Below are positions 9,826-37,787 of a stretch of 64,000 nt of DNA, piece after piece. Source of the stretch: Bryobacter sp. CoA8 C33 (lineage in GTDB: Bacteria > Acidobacteriota > Terriglobia > Bryobacterales > Bryobacteraceae). The notes under the pieces are model-generated. The model saw only the letters and a list, made by a program, of their open reading frames with translations, was not told the DNA's origin and searched no databases. Location of the stretch: NCBI GenBank assembly GCA_019931185.1, contig JAINDK010000009.1, positions 62,001 through 126,000 on the forward strand, written 5' to 3'. The position numbers and the translations under genes were made by a program. Position 1 is the first letter of the stretch, and each line of letters opens with the position of its first letter.

Positions 9826-10950
9826 CTATCGTTCCAACTTCACGCCAAGCAGACCCGCCAGCCTTCCCGCGATCGCCTCCATCGGCATCTCCGGCCTCCG
9901 GCCCGCTCGGATCCCCTCGCCCCAAAACACACAGCCCGCCCGGTAGTCCGCCAGCCCCGGCCACCAGCCATGGTTGCCGCGCTCATAAGGCGCCACATAT
10001 AACTCCCCACCCGGTTTCATCGCAAACCCCTCATTCCGCTTCGGCTCAAACCCCGCTGCCGCCTTCACCCCCGGCATGAACCTCTCCCGCTCCTCCTCCG
10101 GCACTTCCCGCCCCAGCTTGCCGCTCTCCCGCACCCGCCGCGCCGTCGCTTCATCCTCGGCCAGCAGCAATCCCCCCGCCACCCGAACTCGCATCCCCGC
10201 CCCGAACACCGCTACATTCAAGTCCCGGTCCACCCTTTCAAATCCGTGATCTCCCAACACCACAATCACCGCCCCCTTCGGCGCCGCGGCGGCAATTTCC
10301 CCGATATAGCCGTCCGTCACCTCGAGCGTATGGTTCGCTTCCCGCTCAAAGGGCCCCGCTTCGTGCGCCACCGCATCGAGATCCACAAAGTGCAACAACA
10401 GCAGGTCCGGCTTCTCCTGCTTCAGCAGGTATACAGCGGCTACCTTTCTCGTCCGGTCGTCCACCCAGGTCTGCCGGAAACTCGGATCGAATCTCTCGAT
10501 CTTCTCCACCAGCCCCGCCGTCGCTGTTTCATACACCGAGATGTAATCCATGCTCCCGCCATCCCGCCCGCGAAAGTATTCCGGAAGATTGAAGTCGATC
10601 GCCGCCCCCACCGTCACCGGCCAGGTGATCGCCGCGCTCTTCAGTCCCGCCTTCCGCGTCGCATGCCAAAGCGTCTTCACCCTCAGCATCTCCGCCATCC
10701 AATAATAATCGCCGCTTTCGCTCTTCGGTCTCCGGTTGCCAACAATGCCGTGTTCCCGCGACGCCACCCCCGTGATCAGGGTCGTATGGGATGGCCATGT
10801 CACCGTCGGCACCGCCCCCACCAGCCCCCCGATCCACTCGCCTTCCTTCAGCAGCCGCCGCAGATGCGGGATCCTGAGGCCCAATCGGTCCGCGTCCCGC
10901 AAGTACCGGTGGTCCAGCCCGTCCACCGAGATCACCACCACCGGTTGCAT
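9826..10950 (-). CDS. Alkaline phosphatase-like phosphodiesterase/nucleotide pyrophosphatase
   Basis: A 374-residue metal-dependent hydrolase of the type I phosphodiesterase/nucleotide pyrophosphatase group. ISVDGLDHRYL supplies the first metal Asp. PTVTWPSHTTLITG holds the nucleophilic Thr. HFVDLDAVAHEAG and VLGDHGFE give the remaining Asp and His ligands, and GNHGWWPG near residue 335 the last His. There is no clear signal peptide, so a cytoplasmic or non-classical location is likely, unlike most exported relatives. It starts six bases after the symporter stop in the same operon. Possible substrates are phosphodiesters or pyrophosphates; the sequence does not decide. Confidence 0.87.
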   Translation of the reverse strand: MQPVVVISVDGLDHRYLRDADRLGLRIPHLRRLLKEGEWIGGLVGAVPTVTWPSHTTLITGVASREHGIVGNRRPKSESGDYYWMAEMLRVKTLWHATRKAGLKSAAITWPVTVGAAIDFNLPEYFRGRDGGSMDYISVYETATAGLVEKIERFDPSFRQTWVDDRTRKVAAVYLLKQEKPDLLLLHFVDLDAVAHEAGPFEREANHTLEVTDGYIGEIAAAAPKGAVIVVLGDHGFERVDRDLNVAVFGAGMRVRVAGGLLLAEDEATARRVRESGKLGREVPEEERERFMPGVKAAAGFEPKRNEGFAMKPGGELYVAPYERGNHGWWPGLADYRAGCVFWGEGIRAGRRPEMPMEAIAGRLAGLLGVKLER

Positions 10951-31596: not shown

Positions 31597-34500
31597 ATGA
31601 ACTGGACCCGTCAACAGCGCCAACAAGCCCTCGAGGAAGCCCTCCAGAAGCGAATTCTTATCCTCGATGGCGCCATGGGCACCATGCTCCAGCAACTTAA
31701 CCCCACCATCGAAGACTGGGGTGGCCCCGCCTTTGAAAACTGCCCGGAAAACCTCCTTTTCACACGCCCCGATTGGATCCGTGATATCCATCGTCAGTAC
31801 TACCAAGCCGGTGCCGACATCGTCGAAACCGATTCCTTCGGCGGCCATACCGTCACCCTCGCCGAATTCGGCCTCGAAAACAGAATCCACGAAGTCAACG
31901 CCCTCTCGGCCCGCATCGCTCGCCAAGCCGCCGCTGAATTTGAAGCCCAGGACGGCCGCCCCCGCTTTGTCGCCGGTTCCATGGGCCCCACCACTAAAGC
32001 CATCACCGTCACCGGCGGCATCACCTTCGACGCTCTCCGCGACGGTTACTACAAACAAGCCAAGGGCTTGGTCGATGGCGGCGCCGACATCCTCCTTGTC
32101 GAGACCGCCCAGGACACCCGCAACATCAAGGCCGCCCTGCTTGCCATCAACCACCTCGGCCGCGAACTCGGCTACAACATTCCCACCATGATCTCCGGCA
32201 CCATCGAAAACACCGGTACCATGCTCGCCGGTCAGGACGCCGAAGCTTTCTATGCCTCCCTCGCCCACTCGAGCATCCTCTCAATCGGTCTCAATTGCGC
32301 CACTGGCCCCGAGTTCATGACCGACCACATCCGTTCCCTTCACGAGATGAGCCACCATCACATCTCCTGCTATCCCAACGCCGGCGTCCCCAACGAAGAA
32401 CTCAAATATAACGAGACCCCCACCTCTCTCGCCGCCCAAATCGAAAAATTCCTCCAGCAAGGCTGGCTCAACATCGTCGGTGGCTGTTGCGGTACCACCC
32501 CCGAACACATCCACGCCATCGCCCAAATCGCCCGTAACTACCAGCCCCGCTCCCCCCGCCGCACCACCCACCGCGCCTATTATTCCGGTATCGAACTCGT
32601 CGAGGCCGACGAAACCAACCGTCCCCTTCTCGTCGGCGAGCGCACCAACGTCATCGGTTCCCGCCTCTTCAAAAACATGATCAACGAGGAGAAGTGGGAA
32701 GAAGCCACCGAGATCGCCCGCCGCCAGGTCCGTACCGGCGCTCACGTCATCGACGTCTGCCTCCAGACCTCCGAGCGTGACGAACTCAAGGACATCCCTC
32801 CCTTCTACGAAAAGCTCATCCGCAAGATCAAGGCGCCTTTGATGATCGACACTACCGATCCCAAGGCTGTCGAACTTGCCCTCTCTTACTCCCAGGGCAA
32901 AGCCATCATCAACTCGATCAACCTCGAGGACGGCGAAGACAAGTTCGAGCACATCTGCCCTCTCATCCGCGATTACGGCGCCGCCGTCGTCGTGGGCACC
33001 ATCGACGAAGACCCCGTCCAGGCCCAGGCCTTCACCCGGGAACGCAAGCTCGCCATCGCCCGCCGCAGCACCACTCTCCTAACTCAAAAATACGGTCTCG
33101 CCCCCGAAGACATCATCATCGACCCCCTCGTGTTTCCCTGCGCCACGGGCGACGAAAACTACATCGGTGGCGCGGTCGAAACCATCGAAGCCCTTCGCCT
33201 CATCAAGGCGGAAATCCCCTATGTCAAGACCGTTCTGGGCATCTCCAACATCAGCTTCGGTCTCCCCGCCGCCGCCCGCGAAGTCGTCAACAGCGTTTTC
33301 CTTTATCACTGCACAAAGGCCGGCCTTGACCTCGCCATCGTCAACACCGAAAAGCTCGAGCGCTTCGCCTCCATTCCCGCCGAAGAACGCCAGTTGGCCG
33401 AAAACCTCCTCTTCAACTCCCCCGTCCAAGACGAACCCGCCGACTGGCGCCTACAGTCCAAGGAACAAAAGGCCGCTCTCAATAAGCACCACATCGACGC
33501 CATCGCCGCCCACTTCCGCACCGCCACCAAGAAGGTCAAGGCCGTTGCCGCCGAACTCCCCCTCGATGAGCGCCTCGCTAACTACATCATCCAGGGCACC
33601 AAGGATGGCCTCATCGACGATCTCGATCTCAAACTGGCCGAAGGCGCCGCTCCCCTCGACATCATCAACGGCCCCCTCATGAAAGGCATGGACGAGGTCG
33701 GCCGTCTGTTCAATAACAACGAACTCATCGTCGCCGAAGTCCTCCAGTCCGCCGAAGCCATGAAGGCCGGCGTCGGTCATCTCCAGCAGTTCATGGAGAA
33801 ATCCGAGACCACCTCCAAAGGCAAACTCCTGCTCGCCACCGTCAAGGGCGATGTCCACGACATCGGCAAAAACCTCGTTGAAATCATCCTTTCCAACAAC
33901 GGCTTCGAGGTCGTTAACCTGGGCATTAAAGTGCCCCCCGACGAACTCATCCGCGGCTTTCACCAACACCAGCCCGACGCTATTGGCCTCTCCGGCTTGC
34001 TCGTCAAGAGCGCCCAGCAAATGGTCATCACCGGCGCCGACCTCAAGGACGCCGGCATCGACGTCCCCCTGCTCGTGGGCGGCGCCGCCCTCAGCGACAA
34101 ATACACTCGCACCAAAATCGCCCCCGCCTACGGCAGCCTCACACTCTATGCCAAGGACGCCATGACTGGCCTCAAGCTGATGCAGGATCTTGCCGACCCG
34201 GCCGCCCGCAAAGCCCTCGAGACCGCCGATTTCTCCAAGGCCACCGATCTCGTCGCCGCCGAACCCATGGGCTCACCCGAACTCGCCCGCTCCACCACCC
34301 GCAGCGCCAAGGTCCGTCTCGATCTTCCCATCGCTCCTGTCCCCTACTGGGATCGCAAAGTCCGCGCCGTTCCCCAACTCAAGGAAATCTGGGAATACAT
34401 CAACCCCTTCATGCTCTACGGCAAGAACCTCGGCTACAAAGGTAACTTCGAGGCTAACCTTGCTGCCCGCGAAGCAAAGGCTCTCGACATGTTCCATAAG

Positions 34501-35142
34501 GTCGAAGAAGTCAAAACCTGGGCCGCCGACTTCCTCAAGCCCAAGGCCGTTTGGCAGTTCTTCGAAGCCGAACGCGACGGCAACTCCATTCATCTCTTCC
34601 ACCACGGCGCCTCCACTCCCGCTCACACCTATCACTTCCTCCGCCAGCCCAAGGAGATTGGCCTCTGCCTCTCCGACTACGTTCTTCCTCCCGTGGACGG
34701 TCAACGCGATGCCATCTGCCTCTTCGCCGTCACCGCCGGCGGCGACTTCCGCGCCCGTGCCGAACAAGCCAAACAGCAGGGTGAATACTTCAAAAGCGTT
34801 GCTCTTCTTGCCCTCGCTACTGAAACCGCCGAAGCTACCGCCGAATGGCTCCACCGCCGTATCCGCGAAGACTGGGGCTTCCCTGATTCCCCAGACATGA
34901 CCATGCAGCAGCGCTGGACCAGTCGCTACCGTGGCAAACGCTACAGCTTCGGCTACGGCGCCTGCCCCAATATGGAAGATCAGGTCGCTCTCTTTTCCCT
35001 CATCCAGCCAGGCGAAATCGGCATCGAACTCACCGAAGGCTTCATGATGGAACCCGAGGCCAGCGTCTCCGCCTTGGTCTTCCACCACCCAGACGCTGCT
35101 TACTTCACCGCCGCCTCCGCCGAAGATCTGCCCGAGGCCTGA
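31597..35142 (+). CDS. metH: Cobalamin-dependent methionine synthase
   Basis: A full-length 1181-residue MetH, methylating homocysteine to methionine from 5-methyltetrahydrofolate through cobalamin. All four modules are present. The homocysteine module (about 1-325) has zinc ligands Cys234 in LNCATG and Cys297-Cys298 in GGCCGTTPEH. The pterin module begins with LVGERTNVIGSRLF. The cobalamin module holds GDVHDIGKNL, where His754 is the lower cobalt ligand. The reactivation module, with RYSFGYGACPNMEDQ, binds SAM for reductive repair. ATG 31597 is the only good start. No metF or folate gene is adjacent, and no riboswitch is visible. Confidence 0.97.
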   Translation: MNWTRQQRQQALEEALQKRILILDGAMGTMLQQLNPTIEDWGGPAFENCPENLLFTRPDWIRDIHRQYYQAGADIVETDSFGGHTVTLAEFGLENRIHEVNALSARIARQAAAEFEAQDGRPRFVAGSMGPTTKAITVTGGITFDALRDGYYKQAKGLVDGGADILLVETAQDTRNIKAALLAINHLGRELGYNIPTMISGTIENTGTMLAGQDAEAFYASLAHSSILSIGLNCATGPEFMTDHIRSLHEMSHHHISCYPNAGVPNEELKYNETPTSLAAQIEKFLQQGWLNIVGGCCGTTPEHIHAIAQIARNYQPRSPRRTTHRAYYSGIELVEADETNRPLLVGERTNVIGSRLFKNMINEEKWEEATEIARRQVRTGAHVIDVCLQTSERDELKDIPPFYEKLIRKIKAPLMIDTTDPKAVELALSYSQGKAIINSINLEDGEDKFEHICPLIRDYGAAVVVGTIDEDPVQAQAFTRERKLAIARRSTTLLTQKYGLAPEDIIIDPLVFPCATGDENYIGGAVETIEALRLIKAEIPYVKTVLGISNISFGLPAAAREVVNSVFLYHCTKAGLDLAIVNTEKLERFASIPAEERQLAENLLFNSPVQDEPADWRLQSKEQKAALNKHHIDAIAAHFRTATKKVKAVAAELPLDERLANYIIQGTKDGLIDDLDLKLAEGAAPLDIINGPLMKGMDEVGRLFNNNELIVAEVLQSAEAMKAGVGHLQQFMEKSETTSKGKLLLATVKGDVHDIGKNLVEIILSNNGFEVVNLGIKVPPDELIRGFHQHQPDAIGLSGLLVKSAQQMVITGADLKDAGIDVPLLVGGAALSDKYTRTKIAPAYGSLTLYAKDAMTGLKLMQDLADPAARKALETADFSKATDLVAAEPMGSPELARSTTRSAKVRLDLPIAPVPYWDRKVRAVPQLKEIWEYINPFMLYGKNLGYKGNFEANLAAREAKALDMFHKVEEVKTWAADFLKPKAVWQFFEAERDGNSIHLFHHGASTPAHTYHFLRQPKEIGLCLSDYVLPPVDGQRDAICLFAVTAGGDFRARAEQAKQQGEYFKSVALLALATETAEATAEWLHRRIREDWGFPDSPDMTMQQRWTSRYRGKRYSFGYGACPNMEDQVALFSLIQPGEIGIELTEGFMMEPEASVSALVFHHPDAAYFTAASAEDLPEA

Positions 35143-35145
35143 TTC

Positions 35146-36411
35146 TTAGCCCGCCAGCCCCAGCACCACCTCGCGTAACACCCGCGCTCCCCGCTCACAG
35201 TCCTCCCACTCCGTCCACTCCCGTGGCGAGTGGCTCACACCCCCGGCGCTTGGCACGAAAACCATTCCCATCGGCATGACTCGCGCCATCATCTGCGCAT
35301 CATGGCCCGCCCCGCTGGCCATCCGCATCGTCCCCAGCCCCAGCCCGCGTGCCGTTGCTTCAATCCGCCCCGCGATCCCGCCATCGGCTAGCGCCGGCTC
35401 ATTGCGTCCCCGCCGGATCATCTCGATTCTCAATCCACTCTCCCCCGCGATTGCCTCCACCCGCTTTCGGATCTTCGCCCCCAGCGCCTCCAGCTTCGCG
35501 CTCGACAAATCCCGCATTTCCACCAGTAGCCTCGCCTCTCCCGGCACCACGTTCGCTGCATTCGGCTTTACCTCCAGTTACCCGACCGTACCCACCTGCT
35601 CCCCCGGCTCACTCATCACAATCTCCCGCACCGCCAGCGTCACCTGCGCCGCCGCCACCAGAGCATCCTTGCGCTCCGCCATGGGCGTCGTCCCCGCATG
35701 GTTCGCCTCACCCCGCACCACCACCTCATAGCGGTCCACCCCCACAATCCCCTCTACCACCCCAATCGGCACTCCCGCCTTTTCGAGCCTTCCTCCCTGC
35801 TCAATGTGCAACTCCACATAAGCGTGATAAGCCCCTGGCTGGATCCGCGCGCTTTCCAGTTCCTCTGGCCTCCCCCCAATCCGCCGGATCGCCTCCGCCT
35901 TCGTCATCCCCCTCCACACTACCTGCAATTCCTCGGCTCCCATCCGCCCCACCTCCGCCCGGCTCCCATTTAGGCTCGCCCCGGCGAACGTCGCTTCCTC
36001 GCAGGCCCACACTACCGCTTCGATTCCCCGTCTCGTCGCCCCCGCTCCCCGCAGCACCTCCACGGCCGCCAACGCTCCCAAGACCCCATCAAAGTTCCCC
36101 CCCTCCGGCACCGTGTCCACATGCGAACCCACCAACACCGGCGCCAGTCCCCGCTCCCGCCCCTCCCGCCTTGCAAAAATGTTTCCCGCCGCATCCACTC
36201 GCACCACTCCCCCGGTTTCTCTCATCTTTTGCATCACTTACCGCCGCCCCGCGATGTGTTCATTCATTTACCCCACCCGGCTCACCCCGCTCCGTATCGA
36301 ACCCCCCGCCGGCCTTCCGATCTCGCTCAACTCTTCCAGCATGCGCCGCAGCCGGTCCTCCTGCCCCCATGCCGCCAACGCTACTCCCCCCACCCACTCA
36401 CGCCTTCGCAT
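35146..36411 (-). pseudogene. M20 Zn-dependent hydrolase (N-carbamoyl amino acid/allantoate amidohydrolase-like) interrupted by three in-frame TAA codons
   Basis: One frame of 421 codons, the family's normal length, runs from ATG 36411 to TAA 35148 without any frameshift. It contains TAA at codons 48 (36268-36270), 58 (36238-36240) and 278 (35578-35580). The active-site set is otherwise complete: GSHVDTVPEGGNFDG, ACEEATF, ELHIEQGG, GEANHAGTTPM, SGAGHDAQ and GVSHSPREW. Flanking residues (GVSRVG-stop, AGRR-stop-VM) fit positions where relatives usually have Tyr. It would cleave carbamoyl or ureido groups if made. It may be a young pseudogene, a readthrough gene or a sequencing artefact. TAA is an ordinary stop elsewhere in the window. 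Confidence 0.85.
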
Positions 36412-36458
36412 GACTCCAAGATACTCTTTCCTCACCCCATACCCTCTCCCTCACCCGC

Positions 36459-36464
36459 TAACCT
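36459..36464 (+). promoter_or_regulatory. -10-like TAACCT before the PLP decarboxylase
   Basis: TAACCT ends exactly six bases before ATG 36471 and no Shine-Dalgarno sequence lies between them. Placement matches the hexamers at 1536 and 21246. Weak on its own. Confidence 0.3.
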
Positions 36465-36470
36465 GAACCA

Positions 36471-37787
36471 ATGGACAGTTTCGATCATCTCGCCACCGCT
36501 GCCCGCGCCTACCAGGCCCAGCTTCCCTCCCGCCGCGTCTTCCCCTCGCCCGAGGCCATCGCCGCCCTCTCCACCCTCCCCGCGTCGCTTCCTGAAACCG
36601 GCCTCCCCCTCGAACACATCCTGGCCCTCCTTGCCAATACCGTCGCCCCCGCCACCGTCCTCACCACCTCCGGCCGCTACTTCGGCTTCGTCACCGGCGG
36701 CAGCCTCCCCGCCGCCCTGGCCGCCAACCAACTCGCCGCCGTCTGGGACCAGAACGCCGCCCTCCGCATCATGTCCCCCGCCGCCGTCGAACTCGAGTCC
36801 GTCGCCCTCCGCTGGATCGCCGATTTCCTCCATCTCCCCCCCACCTCCCTCGGCGCCTTCGTCAGTGGCGCCACCATGGCCAACTTTACCGCTATGGCCG
36901 CCGCCCGCCACGCCCTGCTCGCCGCCCAAGGCCATGATGTCGAATCCCTCGGCCTCTTTGCAGCTCCCCCCTTTCCTGTCCTCGTCGGCGAGCAAGCCCA
37001 TGTCTCCGTCTTCAAAGCCCTCGCCATGCTCGGTCTCGGCCGCGACCGTGTCATCCGCGTCCCCTCCGATTCCCAGGGCCGCATGCGTCCCGACGCCTTT
37101 CCCTCTCTCTCCCAGCCCGCCCTCGTCTGTCTCCAGGCCGGTAACGTCAACACCGGCGCTCTCGATTCTCCCGAACTCATCCCCCTCGCCAAACAATCCA
37201 ATTCCTGGGTCCACGTCGATGGCGCCTTCGGCCTCTGGTCCCCTAACGCCAACTATGCTGCCGCCGATTCCTGGGCCACCGACGGCCACAAATGGCTCAA
37301 TGTCCCTTATGACAGCGGCATCGTCTTCGTCCGCGATCCCCAAGCTCTCTCCGGCGCTATGACTCTCACCGCCAGCTACCTCGATCCTGGCGCTGAAATC
37401 GAACCCATGCAGCGCGCCCCGGAATCCTCCCGCCGCGCCCGCGGTATCGACACCTGGGCCGCCCTTCTCTCCCTCGGCCGCACCGGCCTCAGCGAAATGA
37501 TCGAGCGCTGCTGCCGCCATGCACGCCACTTTGCCTCCGTCCTCGCCCTTCACAACGTCGAGATTCTCAACGAAGTCTCCCTCAACCAGGTCCTCGCCGC
37601 CCTCCCGTCCGACCAACAAACCCTCGCTTGGCTCCAAGCCGTTCAGGCCGAAGGCGAGTGCTGGCTCGGTTCCACCATCTGGTCCGGTCGCCGCGCCCTC
37701 CGAATTAGTGTCTCCTCCTGGGCCACCACTGATCAAGATGTCGAGCGCAGCCTCGCCTCCCTCATTCGCCATCTCCCCGCAAAATAG
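36471..37787 (+). CDS. PLP-dependent group II decarboxylase-family protein
   Basis: A 438-residue fold-type I PLP enzyme of the glutamate/aromatic-amino-acid decarboxylase family. Blocks in order are GRYFGFVTGGSLPAALAANQ, FVSGATMANFTAMAAAR (phosphate loop), HVSVFKALAMLGLG (the first residue is the ring-stacking His), WVHVDGAFGLW (Asp pairing with the pyridine nitrogen) and TDGHKWLNVPYD, where Lys274 forms the internal aldimine. The C-terminal domain is complete. Substrate cannot be read; aromatic amino acids or a non-decarboxylating role are possible. It is divergent from the broken M20 gene and meets the orphan regulator tail-to-tail across a hairpin. Confidence 0.88.
   Translation: MDSFDHLATAARAYQAQLPSRRVFPSPEAIAALSTLPASLPETGLPLEHILALLANTVAPATVLTTSGRYFGFVTGGSLPAALAANQLAAVWDQNAALRIMSPAAVELESVALRWIADFLHLPPTSLGAFVSGATMANFTAMAAARHALLAAQGHDVESLGLFAAPPFPVLVGEQAHVSVFKALAMLGLGRDRVIRVPSDSQGRMRPDAFPSLSQPALVCLQAGNVNTGALDSPELIPLAKQSNSWVHVDGAFGLWSPNANYAAADSWATDGHKWLNVPYDSGIVFVRDPQALSGAMTLTASYLDPGAEIEPMQRAPESSRRARGIDTWAALLSLGRTGLSEMIERCCRHARHFASVLALHNVEILNEVSLNQVLAALPSDQQTLAWLQAVQAEGECWLGSTIWSGRRALRISVSSWATTDQDVERSLASLIRHLPAK

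Follow-up and report, generated by a model that had tools for sequence, protein, structure and literature searches.

The M20 hydrolase gene at positions 35146-36411 (minus strand) of the window, the whole 64,000-nucleotide stretch analyzed, is very probably a recently inactivated, young pseudogene of the nonsense-only type. The gene is assigned to the hydantoinase/carbamoylase (allantoate / N-carbamoyl-amino-acid amidohydrolase) group. Young pseudogene is the most likely reading because decoding of TAA finds no support in this genome, and because a similar decay, with mixed stops, is seen in another gene of this contig. The original prediction had listed a very young pseudogene, programmed readthrough, or an artefact changing TAC to TAA in GGTAC contexts. 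The first is the best supported of the three: relatives carry sense codons at the interrupted sites, the chromosomal junction hosting the gene is found without it in other genomes, and no other TAA-interrupted genes were found in the sets searched.

An M20 frame with three internal TAA codons

Translation confirms the frame originally predicted, which measures 421 codons followed by a final TAA, is not frameshifted, and is interrupted at codons 48 (36268-36270), 58 (36238-36240) and 278 (35578-35580) and nowhere else. In the consensus sequence, the three internal TAAs are genuine. The start codon, an ATG at 36411, agrees with the start of the nearest orthologue, and a Shine-Dalgarno-like GGAG, read from the sequence, is found just 5' of it (36414-36417, minus strand). 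Profile matches were scored with the internal TAA codons read as Tyr. The frame matches the TIGR01879 hydantoinase/carbamoylase profile over positions 1-399 of 401 with 373.1 bits, above the curated cut-off of 204, and is by this score a member of the family; the NF006771 profile matches residues 18-419 with 406 bits (cut-off 399). Judged by homology, the frame is a real gene, beyond chance. The best-matching solved structures are the L-N-carbamoylase 3n5f and the ureidoglycolate hydrolase 4pxe. The frame retains every active-site block (H97, D108, E138/E139, H202, H238, R300, H394); R300 apart, these are presumably the metal-ligand and catalytic residues. The dimerisation domain spans residues 224-323 and includes codon 278. 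Because of the three TAA codons, the whole enzyme is not encoded by an uninterrupted ORF. The in-frame Tyr codons which remain are three TAT, and no TAC.

The three sites and the locus in related genomes

Homologues have been sought in 60 related genomes, which contain 24 other M20 matches, none with an internal stop. All aligned relatives have sense codons at the three sites. The nearest orthologue found resides in a microorganism of the same genus (genome G001; G000 is the genome under study), is 65% identical, and features TAT, TAT and CAT at codons 48, 58 and 278, respectively. The best match found in a wider contig collection is only 59% identical. Relatives in the alignment have Tyr or Phe at site 48. 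At site 58 Tyr or Phe predominates, with Leu in a single relative and Trp in a group of more distantly related Acidobacteria; the Tyr residues given as common in relatives by the original prediction are thus matched by the alignment at both sites, as Tyr or Phe. Site 278 is His, encoded by CAT or CAC, in every copy of the genus covering the site; the other relatives show Arg, Gln, Tyr, Glu or His. From this distribution, codon 278 probably specified His in the past, and an ancestral His implies that at least two base changes were needed to reach TAA.

Codons 49-68 (36208-36267, minus strand) carry seven substitutions found in G000 only, including S49M, D52H and L62K. Their clustering is not significant when the frame is scanned (P = 0.24; the unscanned binomial value is 0.008). 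Replacement of a patch, covering codons 48-68, by a template located elsewhere has been rejected, as no source was found in ~824 kb of the genome and the clustering is not significant.

The left neighbour of the M20 gene is metH (31597-35142, plus strand), which is convergent, its end lying 3 bases away from the last stop codon of the M20 frame. The right neighbour, a divergent gene, encodes a PLP-dependent decarboxylase (36471-37787, plus strand). Strand composition is strongly marked at the locus, as G makes up 48% of the coding strand of the M20 gene, and C 45% of that of the decarboxylase gene. The metH/PLP-decarboxylase junction (window positions 35142-36471) has no M20 gene in G001, G002, G003 and G004, all members of the genus. 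The two genes are separated by ~25 bp in G002 and G004, by a VapBC-like pair in G001, and by a DUF4160/DUF2442-like pair in G003, both pairs being named by sequence inspection. No M20 match was found in genome G006, which is 98% complete and assembled in 4 contigs, and no second copy or close paralogue of the gene in G000. The M20-less junctions and the lack of a copy in G006 indicate that members of the genus can dispense with the gene. M20 orthologues in other genomes have neighbours which differ from one another. This diversity, together with the M20-less junctions, indicates that the gene moved to, or arrived at, its present place; no convincing flanking repeats marking an insertion were found at the locus.

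Possible sequence errors and the reading of TAA

An error of the consensus or the assembly affecting at least one TAA codon, due to miscalls or to a mixture of strains, is unlikely. The idea draws on the state of the assembly, which is fragmented into 138 contigs and was judged from its consensus, on the sequence GGTAA shared by all three sites, and on the absence of excess missense change in the frame. GGTAC is, however, intact 71 times in the 64-kb window, in line with the remark in the original prediction that it is intact elsewhere. One of these copies lies inside the M20 gene, out of frame and adjoining codon 278 (35588-35592, minus strand), a counter-example to an artefact tied to the motif. 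In 411 long frames, TAC and TAT are found as Tyr codons in similar proportions after GG (64:98) and after CG (72:119). A systematic error at GGTAC would have broken other genes as well, but in-frame TAA is absent from 18 other M20, 34 MFS and 114 CarboxypepD matches of this genome. In 165 of these 166 matches there are no internal stops at all, and the remaining one, a CarboxypepD match, has a TGA; no stops were found among the ABC-transporter matches listed. Moreover, as His is found at site 278 in the genus, a single TAC miscall would require a Tyr unattested there. The intact motifs, the Tyr codon ratio and the His at 278 refute a systematic GGTAC to GGTAA error, as proposed in the original prediction.

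TAA is an ordinary stop in this genome, as it terminates 114 of the 411 long frames. Genome-wide reassignment of the codon has been rejected on this count, and on the absence of in-frame TAA from the three families.

Readthrough limited to the M20 gene, in which TAA would sometimes be read as Tyr or a near-cognate residue and small amounts of active enzyme be made, is quite improbable. Bacterial genes widely carry in-frame stops, which tend to be short-lived; the sequences flanking them have dN/dS values of 0.66-0.82, and frequent readthrough has been suggested (Belinky et al. 2021, PMC7918605). The dN/dS <1 found around many of these stops is in favour of readthrough, as are the single unbroken frame with all its active-site blocks, the lack of a detectable excess of missense changes, and Tyr/Phe as the sense residues at two of the sites. 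Readthrough at low level is nevertheless unlikely for the M20 gene because the stops are three in succession, and the loss is multiplied at each. Furthermore, no tRNA with a stop-pairing anticodon (TTA, CTA or TCA) is present in the ARAGORN output for the 45 tRNA matches, a list which is incomplete, some Leu tRNAs being missing. The RNA around the stops has no stable, stimulatory structure, as both the region of codons 48 and 58 (z +2.5) and that of codon 278 (z +2.2) are less stable than shuffled sequences. Inspection of the three sites revealed no sequence context known to favour readthrough. None of the M20 stops is common to any aligned relative, and family searches yielded no further TAA-interrupted gene. 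Programmed readthrough, as entertained in the original prediction, thus finds no positive support in tRNAs, RNA folding or the stops of relatives.

Also quite improbable is a low-level decoding of certain TAA codons across the lineage, as Tyr or a near-cognate residue, by which the M20 gene, and perhaps, with its mixed stops, a three-stop TonB-like gene described below, would still be weakly expressed.

A peroxiredoxin-like frame found outside the window, at position 10677 of the same contig (C70, minus strand), reads DDTPG-TGA-TKQVCDIRD. Relatives of this frame presumably have Cys at the TGA position in most cases, and the TGA is a probable selenocysteine codon. A tRNA-Sec gene is found at positions 33056-33146 of contig C117 (73.4 bits), and concerns TGA.

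That the M20 gene is a split gene, translated by restarts at codons 49 (ATG), 59 (GTG) and 60 (ATG) into fragments which assemble into an enzyme, is hardly credible: an ATG does directly follow codon 48, GTG-ATG directly follow codon 58, and open fragments of 219 and 134 codons result, but V59 and M60 are the usual residues in relatives and hence do not represent new starts, none of the relatives is split, and the break at codon 278 falls within the dimerisation domain.

Probable decay of the frame and comparison with known systems

The young pseudogene remains the preferred reading, and its origin may be outlined as follows. The M20 gene sits in a junction, between metH and the PLP-decarboxylase gene, which is prone to insertions in this lineage. 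Its function being dispensable, the gene could gather nonsense mutations. Ribosomes starting at the ATG at 36411 should stop at codon 48, and those restarting internally, at codons 49 or 59, would terminate at codons 58 or 278. The products of such restarts would not include the C-terminal part, in which the last conserved histidine (H394) resides, and active enzyme is therefore not expected. The gene thus appears to have lost its function, and to have done so recently.

Nonsense-only decay occurs also elsewhere in this genome, and is not confined to TAA. A gene coding for a TonB-like/CarboxypepD outer-membrane protein (C70, contig positions 57670-60880, minus strand) lies outside the window, 1.1 kb to the left of its first position and ~36 kb away from the M20 gene. 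The family call rests on a CarboxypepD match at contig positions 60596-60838 and on inspection. The gene features a TGA, a TAA and a TAG in one unbroken frame. According to the original prediction, random decay normally gives frameshifts and mixed stops; in this gene the stops are mixed as expected, but no frameshift is present.

Residues changed in G000 only and in G001 only number 58 and 31, respectively, in the M20 gene, and 194 and 105 in four intact genes pooled (metH, 66:39; PLP decarboxylase, 52:38; LuxR-type regulator, 15:3; ParA-like, 61:25). No missense excess of the M20 gene over the four intact genes is detected (Fisher P = 1.0), a point against decay. By estimate, the data leave room for up to ~40 extra missense changes in the M20 gene, and hence neither contradict nor show a recent decay. 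In a branch model, omega is 0.054 on the G000 branch and 0.027 elsewhere, a difference which is not significant (2dlnL 1.1), synonymous sites being saturated. With the same saturation, a value of omega = 1 along the entire G000 branch can be rejected (lnL -7666.15 vs -7644.23). Most of the G000 branch, however, is presumably older than the stops can be. The dN/dS test put forward with the original prediction is not decisive, because synonymous sites are saturated with respect to the nearest relative found.

Neutral mutation of the frame has been simulated under four mutation spectra, in runs made after the pattern had been seen and starting from Tyr also at codon 278. The third stop appears after a median of 33-82 substitutions and 20-53 changed residues, depending on the spectrum. 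The probability that no indel has occurred by then averages 0.013-0.085 at an assumed rate of 0.1 indels per substitution, and 0.14-0.39 at an assumed rate of 0.03. As frames without indels are found in ~1-40% of the runs, the expectation of frameshifts is a fair argument against random decay, but a weak one. In these post hoc simulations, three stops of the TAA type arise with a probability of 0.002-0.006, and two or more stops at Tyr codons with a probability of 0.001-0.012. Three TAA codons, two of them at Tyr sites, make an unusual pattern, which is left as an unexplained residue and is no proof of another mechanism.

The M20 gene provides a worked example that several stops without a frameshift need not mean recoding. 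Decay and recoding can be separated by looking at the residues of relatives, at other genes in the same genome, at tRNAs, and at junctions lacking the gene. Readthrough of three TAA codons, if true, would matter for the reading of stop codons in uncultured bacteria; nothing here strongly suggests it.

The M20 frame resembles the hydantoinase/carbamoylase M20 peptidases (TIGR01879; 3n5f; 4pxe) in length, domain order and active-site blocks, and differs from the relatives found in having three internal TAA codons, where these have none. Selenocysteine-type recoding similarly features a stop within a conserved frame; in contrast, the stops of the M20 frame are TAA rather than TGA, do not occupy a Cys position, and have no matching TAA tRNA among those found. 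There is also a likeness with the nonsense-only bacterial pseudogenes described by Belinky et al. 2021 (PMC7918605), which also have an otherwise intact frame, no frameshift, and a recent appearance. The M20 gene is set apart from these by its three stops of the same type, two of which lie at former Tyr/Phe positions.
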